Source of the DNA: Archaeoglobi archaeon
GTDB taxonomy: Archaea > Halobacteriota > Archaeoglobi > Archaeoglobales > Archaeoglobaceae
Reading direction: 5' to 3'
Length of the DNA stretch: 64,000 nucleotides
Assembly: GCA_029259415.1 (NCBI GenBank)
Contig: JAPDIW010000023.1
Coordinates: forward strand, 1-64,000
Positions 37,965-44,528 of the stretch are shown one piece after another. Position numbers and translations under genes: made by a program. Each line of letters opens with the position of its first letter. The stretch's first letter is position 1. Under the pieces are notes generated by a model. The model made no database searches. It saw nothing but the letters and a program-made list of their open reading frames with translations, and was not told the origin of the DNA.

Positions 37965-38558
37965 ATGAAACTATTTCATAGAATAACCATATCGCTCAAT
38001 GATGAAGAGATGAAGCTTTTGGAGGATTTAAGGAGAGATAGCGGAGAGAGTTTAAGCCAGATTTTCCGCGAAGCCCTTACAGTTTATTACAACCTTATTA
38101 AGGCTTGCAGAAAAAATAAAGTTGACTTCAGAAAGTACTTTAATGACATAGATAGGCTTGCGACCCACATCCACGGAGTTGAGTCGAGACAGTTCGTAAT
38201 CATTGACAGAGAACTCTACCGCGTTTTGCTGAAGAAAATTCAAGAACTGGGAGATCCGGAGCAAATAGTTGACGAGGAGTTTGTTAATGCGGTGAGGGGT
38301 CTGGCAAACCTTTTTAAAATTGAATTTGAGTGGGATGAGAACACGCCGGACATCGAAAAAGCTGAAACCGTCCTGAAGATGATTGAGTTTGCCGGTGGTG
38401 GAGTGCTTCAAAAGTATGGAGAAGAACTCATCTTCCAGACACTTCCTGAGAATTTGATAGTCACAAAAATCATCATTGAGACTCTTTTCGAGCAGCTTAA
38501 CATAAATCTGACAGTCGAAACTTCGCTGGAGAGGATATTTATAAGGGTCAAGAATTAA
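37965..38558 (+). CDS. Ribbon-helix-helix (CopG-like) regulator with C-terminal sensor-like domain
   Basis: N-terminal HRITISLNDEEMKLLEDLRRDSGESLSQIFREALTVYYNL; lies immediately upstream of the methyltransferase operon. Confidence 0.78.
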   Translation: MKLFHRITISLNDEEMKLLEDLRRDSGESLSQIFREALTVYYNLIKACRKNKVDFRKYFNDIDRLATHIHGVESRQFVIIDRELYRVLLKKIQELGDPEQIVDEEFVNAVRGLANLFKIEFEWDENTPDIEKAETVLKMIEFAGGGVLQKYGEELIFQTLPENLIVTKIIIETLFEQLNINLTVETSLERIFIRVKN

Positions 38559-38598
38559 ATACGAGTTAAGAATGTTTTAACTTCAAATCAAATAAATT

Positions 38599-38620
38599 TG
38601 TTATGAACCCTTTCATAACA
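38599..38620. promoter_or_regulatory. Palindromic operator-like element TGTTATGAA-CCCT-TTCATAACA
   Basis: Perfect 9-bp arms with 4-nt spacer, located between the regulator stop and the corrinoid-protein start. Confidence 0.6.
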
Positions 38621-38665
38621 GGTTTTATTTTCATTTGCCTCATTTTCAAAATTGGAGGTGTCTGA

Positions 38666-41858: not shown

Positions 41859-42720
41859 GTTCGGGAACCAGAAGGTGTTCGAAATAGGTGGTGTAAAAAT
41901 TGGAGGGGAGCCAGGAGAAAATCCGACGGTTCTGATAGGAAGCATATTTTACGGGAAACACAAGATCGTGGAGGACGAGAAGAAAGGGATTTTCGACAGA
42001 GAGGCTGCTGAGAAGCTGATAAATGAGATTGAAGAGCTGAGCGACAAAACGGGAAACCCTGGACTTGTCGATGTTGTCGGCATGAGTGAGGAGGCGATAA
42101 AGAAATACATGGAGTTCGTTGCTGACGTTACCGACAAACCTTTCCTCGTCGATTCGGCAATGGCCGACATCAAGATAGCTGCAGTCGAATATGCCAAGGA
42201 AGTGGGGCTTGAGAAAAAAATCGTCTACAACTCAATATCTCCAGAATCGAAAGATAAGGAAATTGAGGCGTTGGAGAACAGCGATATTGAGGCTGCTGTG
42301 GTGCTTACATACACTTTCAACGTTATAAGCAGCAAAGCGAGGCTCGAGGCTCTCGAGAAAATCCTTCCAAAGCTCGAAAAGGCTGGAATTAGTAAGCCTA
42401 TTGTCGACACGTTCGTGATGGATGTCCCAAGCCTTCCCGCTTCCGCAAAAGCAGCGATGGAGATAAAGAAGAAGTACGGGTTCCCATGCGGCTCAGGAGC
42501 CCACAACGCGATAGCAAGCTGGAGAGGGTTCAGGAACATGTTTGGAAAGGAAGCTGAGAAGTCCGCAGTTCTCATAGCAAACACCATGCAGCTGGTTCTA
42601 GGATCGGACTTTGTGCTCTACGGGCCGGTAGAGGACGCGAAAATCGTATTTCCAGCTGTGTTTACACTGGATACGGCCTACAGGTACTTCGCGAGGACGA
42701 AAGACTTCATAGAAGTTTAA
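41851..42720 (+). CDS. mtoA: MtrH-family methyltransferase (MtoA-like)
   Basis: [57 protein letters not shown] is characteristic of MtrH. Confidence 0.88.
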   Translation: [289 protein letters not shown]

Positions 42721-42728
42721 GGTGAAAT

Positions 42729-44528
42729 ATGAGCGTAAGAGTAACGTTCGAGCCAGCAGGAAAGAAGATTGAGACTTCTCCGAATTTTATTCTCGAGATT
42801 GCGAGAGAGGCCAATGTAGCCCTGCGTTCAGACTGCGGCGGAAAGGGTGTCTGCGGTAAATGCAGGGTAGTCATTGTCGACGCAAGAGGAGAGATAAGCG
42901 AAATAAATGAGGTGGAAAGAAAGCACCTTACTGCAGAGGAGATCAAAGCTGGCTACAGACTCGCCTGTCAGACGAAAATACTGAGCGGGAGAGCAACCGT
43001 TTTCATACCTCCGGAAAGCAGAATGGAAGCCAGAAAAGTTGCCGAAATTGCTGTTGAGGAGGAGGTCGAGCTAAATCCGGCTGTTAGGAAGGTTCACCTC
43101 AAATTACCGGAGCCAGACCTTGAAGATACAAGGCCGGATTTTGAGAGGCTGAAAGACTCCTTGGGAGATGTGGAAATGCCCCTGAACCTGCTGAAAAAAC
43201 TTCCACTACTGCTAAGGGAGGCAAACTGGGATATCACCGCAGTTCTATGGAACAAAAAGCTGGTTGGAGTTGAAAGCGGTGATACTAGTAGCAGGGTTTT
43301 TGGCCTGGCGATAGATATCGGCTCCTCGAAGATAATCTGCCATCTCGTTGATCTCGTAAATGGAAAAACCGTGGCGAGAGGCTACACTGAGAACCCGCAG
43401 GTGGCTTACGGAGAGGACGTTGTTTCCCGCATAACTTACACATCCAAGAAAGAAGAAAATCTAAAAAAGCTACAGGAAATCGTCGTTGATGCAATAAACG
43501 GGATAATTGACAAAATCTGCAAAGAAGCAGATGTAAGATACGACGAAATTTACGAAACTGTGGTGGTCGGCAACTCCGTAATGCACCACCTTTTCTTCGG
43601 CATATATCCGAAATTCATAAGCGTCTCTCCCTTCACACCTGCCGTCAGAAAAGGCATAAGTTACCCGGCCAGAGAGGTAGGACTTAAAATAAACGGCGAT
43701 GGGCATGTAACTTCACTTCCGCTTATAGCAGGGTTTGTCGGTGCAGATGCTACGTCAAATCTCGTGATAACGAAGATTCACGAAAAAGAGGAGATTAGCA
43801 TAGTGATAGACATAGGAACGAACACTGAGATAATTCTAGGCAACAAAAGCAGATTGCTCGCATGCTCTGCCCCTTCCGGACCGGCTTTTGAGGGAGCACA
43901 CATAAGCCATGGAATGAAGGCGGTGAGCGGTGCGATAGAGAAGGTAAGAATTGTGGATGATGAGGTTATTTACGAAACCGTTGACAACGTGAAGCCAAAG
44001 GGGATATGTGGTAGCGGAATGATTGATTTGGTGGCAGAGCTTTACAAAGCCGGGATTATAAACAGGAATGGAAAATTCGTCAAGGAGACTAAGAGGATAA
44101 TAAAAGACGGTGTTCCGAAGTTCGTCGTTGCTTGGGCGGATGAAACAGAGACTGGCAAGGAGATTACAGTTACGGAGAAGGACATAAATGAGCTCCTCAT
44201 GGCCAAGGGGGCGATAAGGTCGGGATGGATGATTCTGATGGAGAGGCTCGGAATTGAGGCAAACGAGATTTCGAAGGTATATCTTGCCGGCTCGTTTGGA
44301 AGGCACATAAACATCGAGAACGCCAAAACTATCGGGTTGCTTCCGGACATTCCAAATGACAGAATCGTTTTCGCCGGAGACACGGCAGTCGGCGGTGCTA
44401 AGATGGCGCTAAAATCTGTTGAGGAGAGGGAGAAAATCGAGGAGGTTGTTGGGAAGATTGAGTACGTTGAGCTTTCCGCAGATAAGAACTTCTACCGAAC
44501 TTTCATAAGGGCGATTCCGATGGGATAA
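42729..44528 (+). CDS. mtoD: Reductive activator of corrinoid proteins (RACo-like, MtoD candidate)
   Basis: N-terminal 2Fe-2S CGGKGVCGKCRVV...RLACQT, C-terminal ASKHA domain (LAIDIGSSKIICHLVDL; IVIDIGTNTEIIL). Confidence 0.9.
   Translation: MSVRVTFEPAGKKIETSPNFILEIAREANVALRSDCGGKGVCGKCRVVIVDARGEISEINEVERKHLTAEEIKAGYRLACQTKILSGRATVFIPPESRMEARKVAEIAVEEEVELNPAVRKVHLKLPEPDLEDTRPDFERLKDSLGDVEMPLNLLKKLPLLLREANWDITAVLWNKKLVGVESGDTSSRVFGLAIDIGSSKIICHLVDLVNGKTVARGYTENPQVAYGEDVVSRITYTSKKEENLKKLQEIVVDAINGIIDKICKEADVRYDEIYETVVVGNSVMHHLFFGIYPKFISVSPFTPAVRKGISYPAREVGLKINGDGHVTSLPLIAGFVGADATSNLVITKIHEKEEISIVIDIGTNTEIILGNKSRLLACSAPSGPAFEGAHISHGMKAVSGAIEKVRIVDDEVIYETVDNVKPKGICGSGMIDLVAELYKAGIINRNGKFVKETKRIIKDGVPKFVVAWADETETGKEITVTEKDINELLMAKGAIRSGWMILMERLGIEANEISKVYLAGSFGRHINIENAKTIGLLPDIPNDRIVFAGDTAVGGAKMALKSVEEREKIEEVVGKIEYVELSADKNFYRTFIRAIPMG

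Follow-up and report, generated by a model that had tools for sequence, protein, structure and literature searches.

In Archaeoglobus fulgidus, the genes AF_0006-AF_0013 are among those most strongly upregulated during growth on 2-methoxyphenol, and the mto genes of this archaeon, including AF_0006-AF_0010, were published in 2021, along with data on growth and on the transcriptome (Welte et al. 2021, PMC8359953). The Mto proteins of Methermicoccus shengliensis were assayed and found to be active in vitro, and transfer of the methyl group to tetrahydromethanopterin (H4MPT) was proposed for this organism (Kurth et al. 2021, PMC8630106); Methanolacinia petrolearia is named in the same paper among the mto bearers. 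With the A. fulgidus case published, the Mto system in a non-methanogen is already known. Here we describe a locus in a 64,000-nucleotide stretch of DNA from an Archaeoglobi archaeon (the whole stretch is referred to below as the window), which carries this known archaeal gene set for the demethylation of methoxylated aromatics in a second Archaeoglobus.

The mto operon and its host genome

The operon comprises six genes that follow one another on the + strand at 37965-44528 and encode an RHH protein, MtoC, MtoB, an MFS carrier, MtoA and MtoD. The features of the locus are as follows:

37965..38558, + strand: RHH (CopG-type) regulator gene, 197 aa; PF01402 at 33 bits, above cut-off; the C-terminal part is long and matches no Pfam family
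38599..38620, no strand: candidate operator TGTTATGAA-CCCT-TTCATAACA, with perfect 9-bp arms; putative function
38623..38631, + strand: TATA-like box TTTTATTTT, read from the sequence; putative promoter element
38666..39304, + strand: mtoC, corrinoid protein; PF02607 (B12-binding_2) and PF02310 (B12-binding); 86% identity to A. fulgidus mtoC
39305..40558, + strand: mtoB, UroD-fold O-demethylase (methyltransferase I); PF01208 (URO-D) at 66 bits; 87% identity to A. fulgidus MtoB1; placed by the tree described below
40587..41858, + strand: MFS carrier gene with a probable CTG start; PF07690 (MFS_1); 64% identity to the A. fulgidus gene
41851..42720, + strand: mtoA, MtrH-like methyltransferase (methyltransferase II); PF02007 at 403 bits; 77% identity to A. 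fulgidus MtoA
42729..44528, + strand: mtoD, reductive activator of the corrinoid protein; Fer2, RACo_linker, Raco_middle and RACo_C_ter domains; 67% identity to A. fulgidus MtoD

All six reading frames are intact and the gaps between them are small: mtoC and mtoB are contiguous, the MFS carrier gene and mtoA overlap by 8 bp, and mtoA and mtoD are separated by 8 bp, and the genes therefore look like one operon. The order RHH-C-B-MFS-A-D is also found in the sister MAG, in A. fulgidus and in an Archaeoglobaceae MAG of another genus (L033), and two further Archaeoglobaceae MAGs (L031 and L032) have an additional MFS-type gene between the RHH gene and mtoC. Given that A. fulgidus, the sister Archaeoglobus MAG and the Archaeoglobaceae MAGs from the other genus all show this order, the six genes are not chance neighbours. 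The initial annotation had described six consecutive genes on one strand, from the regulator to the activator, and this description was confirmed by the intact frames, the agreement of the Pfam families and the recurrence of the order. At the family level, the NCBIfam assignments of the operon proteins are consistent with those of Pfam. The mtoD product combines 2Fe-2S and ASKHA parts, belongs to the RACo family and matches 3zyy with an E-value of 7e-128; MtoA is identical to PDB chain 8z9u_B at 251 of 289 positions.

The MFS carrier gene probably starts at a CTG codon (40587), since the LNFG encoded there aligns with the ATG-initiated MNFG of L032 and L033 and since the first ATG of the gene (40650) would leave the first membrane helix without its beginning. 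The CTG is preceded by a strong GGAGGTGA, and the same arrangement is present in the sister MAG. The top NCBIfam matches of the carrier are lactate and oxalate-formate carriers, all of them under cut-off.

The source of the window is a 1.94-Mb draft genome that is 99% complete, with the operon on a contig of 67,958 bases. A profile search of this genome returned DsrA (687 bits) and CdhA (1399 bits), both above cut-off, and did not find McrA, so by gene content the genome is that of a non-methanogenic Archaeoglobus. The "non-methanogen" of the initial annotation thus stands, and the novelty that it implied does not, given the published A. fulgidus case. The only protein with B12-binding_2 (PF02607) in the genome is MtoC of the operon, and the only MtrH homologue is MtoA; judged by this sole homologue and by the lack of McrA, MtoA stands apart from any membrane Mtr complex. 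For Mer, the match is below the curated cut-off (191 vs 349 bits), and this model thus gives no confirmation of the step that leads on from CH3-H4MPT.

The A. fulgidus locus with which we compared the operon lies on a one-contig genome (L027), which we take to be that of strain VC-16, at 7.5-16.6 kb. The order of its eight genes fits that of AF_0006-AF_0013 (PMC8359953). The identities of the window proteins to those of A. fulgidus are 87% for MtoB (AF_0007), 86% for MtoC, 77% for MtoA, 67% for MtoD, 64% for the MFS carrier and 53% for the RHH protein; by these identities and the identical gene order, the window operon is the orthologue of AF_0006-AF_0010. The window belongs to a species other than A. 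fulgidus, as identities of 87% in MtoB and 89% in ArgS show; a nearer relative is Archaeoglobus sp. GB_MAG2_100 (L030), with 99% identity in MtoB. MtoB is present in three of eight Archaeoglobus genomes and absent from two near-complete ones, and its occurrence in a second genus as well shows that the methoxydotrophy genes of sulfate-reducing archaea are not peculiar to a single strain.

Related genes were also observed further afield. In a Candidatus Jordarchaeum MAG, a 9.5-kb contig (L035, 4148-9501) carries the whole mto cassette in the same order, with the RHH gene and the palindrome. The composition of this contig fits one of the three bin contigs tested (0.926) and not the remaining two, which leaves room for both transfer and misbinning. 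A Thermoprotei MAG encodes, on a 372-kb contig (L056, 9489-11300), an MtoD that is 77% identical to that of the window, compared with 67% for A. fulgidus MtoD, and the MtoBs of the same MAG are just 42-44% identical to the window MtoB; MtoD seems to have moved separately.

The chromosomal setting of the operon was also considered. An archaeal SRP RNA gene is located at 35788-36099 of the window, between a histidine-kinase-like gene and argS; the SRP RNA gene and argS remain linked across the genus, and the region past argS is variable. The genes downstream of the operon were not found after argS in any other Archaeoglobus genome inspected, and, as the sequence after argS varies among these genomes, no clean insertion site could be demonstrated by an empty-site comparison. 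A transfer signal in base composition was dropped as well, since the GC content of the operon (0.467) does not contrast with that of the window (0.456).

MtoB phylogeny and the proposed pathway

The initial annotation had named a phylogeny of MtoB as a check of its reading, and a FastTree tree was built from 87 MtoB-like proteins, a set without Methermicoccus and the named bacterial O-demethylases. The window MtoB pairs with that of the sister MAG (support 0.996); next to this pair come A. fulgidus MtoB1 and the MtoB of the second genus (0.991), followed by A. fulgidus MtoB2 and L036 (0.924), and all of them fall within an 18-member clade (1.0) in which mto-bearing genomes from other families of euryarchaea are also represented. 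One of the genomes in this clade is presumably that of Methanolacinia petrolearia. The window MtoB is thus placed inside a clade of MtoBs from methoxydotrophic archaea, and the CdmB locus of Acetobacterium dehalogenans is on a long branch apart from this clade in a tree whose deeper nodes are weakly supported. The match to the Mto C/B/A/D system that the initial annotation had pointed out is supported by this clade, by the A. fulgidus gene order and by identities of 53-87%.

The orthology of MtoB is not proof of its substrate because CdmB, which has the UroD fold and is related to MtoB, is able to act on haloalkanes. The same machinery could in principle serve another donor: like CdmB, MtoB would use chloromethane or another haloalkane, with entry of the methyl group into H4MPT unchanged, and it fits with this that CdmB is the closest solved structure to MtoB (E 2e-65) and that MtoB was named the closest characterised relative of CdmB (PMC13222342). 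However, the identity of the window MtoB to CdmB is 33%, compared with 87% for A. fulgidus MtoB1, and the separate branch of CdmB in the tree likewise disfavours a Cdm chloromethane system; moreover, an operon for the use of a gas would not be expected to conserve an MFS gene. We therefore consider a haloalkane donor very improbable. A corrinoid methyltransferase system of the betaine, methylamine or methanol type is still harder to credit, to the point of being nearly negligible. Good E-values are reached by the MtgC, MtgA, MtbC and MtaC models on MtoC or MtoA, but the specific models score far under their cut-offs (163 vs 370 bits for MtgC, 239 vs 550 bits for MtgA), and methyltransferase I has the UroD fold and is not of the MttB or MtaB type. 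With all the NCBIfam equivalogs under cut-off, the three types were rejected, and so was the glycine betaine Mtg system, for which the MtgC and MtgA scores and a methyltransferase I of the URO-D and not the MttB family give the same answer.

With mtoC, mtoB, mtoA and mtoD co-located in one operon in the A. fulgidus order, we consider it highly probable that the locus is the one Mto O-demethylation operon that this Archaeoglobus species possesses, working as a whole by the mechanism that follows. Its steps follow the publications on A. fulgidus and Methermicoccus (PMC8359953, PMC8630106) and are extended to the window species by orthology. MtoB would transfer the methyl group of a methoxylated aromatic, the presumed substrate, to Co(I)-MtoC, and MtoA would pass it from MtoC to H4MPT, the presumed acceptor. 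The resulting CH3-H4MPT would be oxidised to CO2 or directed into CODH/acetyl-CoA synthase, with sulfate as the electron acceptor. MtoC oxidised to Co(II) would be rescued by MtoD at the expense of ATP and a low-potential electron. The MFS carrier may import the methoxylated compound or export the hydroxylated product. The gene identities, the orthology, the operon layout, the presence of DsrA and CdhA, the absence of McrA and the conserved palindrome are established at the level of sequence.

The RHH regulator and a candidate operator

The RHH protein is 53-55% identical to the products of the genes at the same position in A. fulgidus and relatives. Strong matches to the gene occur in 8 of 394 genomes of the phylum, and these eight are exactly the sampled Archaeoglobaceae genomes with a close MtoB; genome G017, which is without such an MtoB, has a weak match (29% identity). 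No match at an E-value of 1e-8 or better was found in any of five mto-bearing genomes outside Archaeoglobaceae (MtoB at ~60% identity). Three mto loci from outside Archaeoglobaceae (L084 826, L085 826 and L087 3404), in genomes without the RHH gene, have in common a different palindrome, TCTCAC-N6-GTGAGA, just upstream of mtoC. The AlphaFold model of the regulator is of low confidence (mean pLDDT 64.6), and Foldseek returned weak matches of this model to H-NOX and Bet3 (E 0.03-0.1). These matches prompted a comparison of the C-terminal part with V4R, an identity that was rejected because the hhalign probability was below 1%; there was no Pfam match for this part.

A palindrome, TGTTATGAA-N4-TTCATAACA, is located between the RHH gene and mtoC and ends 45 bp upstream of the latter, with the TATA-like TTTTATTTT directly on its 3' side; AACAG(C/G)TTTTAT is retained in A. 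fulgidus and in genome G002. There is one occurrence of the strict core of the palindrome, TTATGAA-N4-TTCATAA, in each of the window genome, G002, G136 (upstream of an mtoC gene) and the Jordarchaeum MAG (upstream of mtoC), and there are two in A. fulgidus (upstream of mtoC and of the MFS gene). The palindrome upstream of mtoC in G189 is one base shorter, and those at mtoC of L031 and L032 are degenerate. A looser pattern also matches in G084, G109, G007, G008 and G011; none of these matches fits the strict core, and the one in G109, as inspected, lies within a gene.

Since palindromes with 8-bp arms arise in 3.75% of shuffles of the RHH-mtoC spacer, the argument rests on conservation and location. 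The core is single-copy in the genome and recurs at the mto promoters of relatives, which makes the palindrome a good candidate operator, and its position against the TATA-like box would suit a repressor. Probably, the RHH protein sits on the palindrome as a repressor of the operon and is released in the presence of the substrate. The shuffling frequency speaks for another possibility, namely that the palindrome is an RNA hairpin or a site of another regulator. We find this rather unlikely, because the core is kept while the spacer bases change in four groups at the level of genera and is found almost exclusively at mto promoters, and because the palindrome, being upstream of the TATA-like box, is probably outside the mtoC transcript.

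Taking the palindrome as the operator of the RHH protein, we propose that the two form a self-contained, substrate-responsive switch for archaeal methoxydotrophy, which accompanies the mto cassette through Archaeoglobaceae and into a Jordarchaeum and is unlike the control of mto in the methanogens that carry it; the chances for this broader proposal seem to us evenly poised. In the searchable literature we found no description of a regulator or an operator of the A. fulgidus mto cluster, and the distribution of the RHH gene and the palindrome appear to have been undescribed so far; in that literature, every other part of the locus has a described counterpart. The candidate regulator and operator offer a concrete target for the question of how archaea sense methoxylated aromatics, which is unaddressed in the literature found.

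Comparison with described systems

In A. fulgidus, mtoC-mtoB is present in two copies (L027, 7548-9434 and 13493-15376), which form a mosaic. At the DNA level, the identity between copy 1 and copy 2 is mostly 82-100% in mtoC and the first part of mtoB; it falls to 47-78% in the middle of mtoB and returns to 83-98% in the last third, whereas the window gene is uniformly 67-88% identical to copy 1. Gene conversion outside the diverged middle segment of mtoB would be the simplest reading, and this segment is a candidate for the determination of substrate specificity. Having one mtoB, the window species offers a cleaner case for assigning substrate range than A. fulgidus, in which two copies recombine.

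The CdmBCA system of A. dehalogenans resembles that of the window in consisting of a UroD-fold methyltransferase I, a corrinoid protein and a methyltransferase II, and differs from it in using a haloalkane substrate and tetrahydrofolate as the methyl acceptor, with MtoB being 33% identical to its counterpart (PMC13222342). The M. shengliensis system shares MtoC, MtoB, MtoA and MtoD, along with transporters and a proposed methyl transfer to H4MPT, with the window; unlike the window species, M. shengliensis is a methanogen with two MtoBs. The A. fulgidus cluster has the order of the RHH gene, mtoC, mtoB, the MFS gene, mtoA and mtoD and the palindrome before mtoC in common with the window operon. 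It differs in containing a second mtoC-mtoB-MFS set and, upstream of its MFS gene, a further palindrome, both absent from the window, and in being located behind an ABC-ATPase gene, whereas the window operon is located behind argS.
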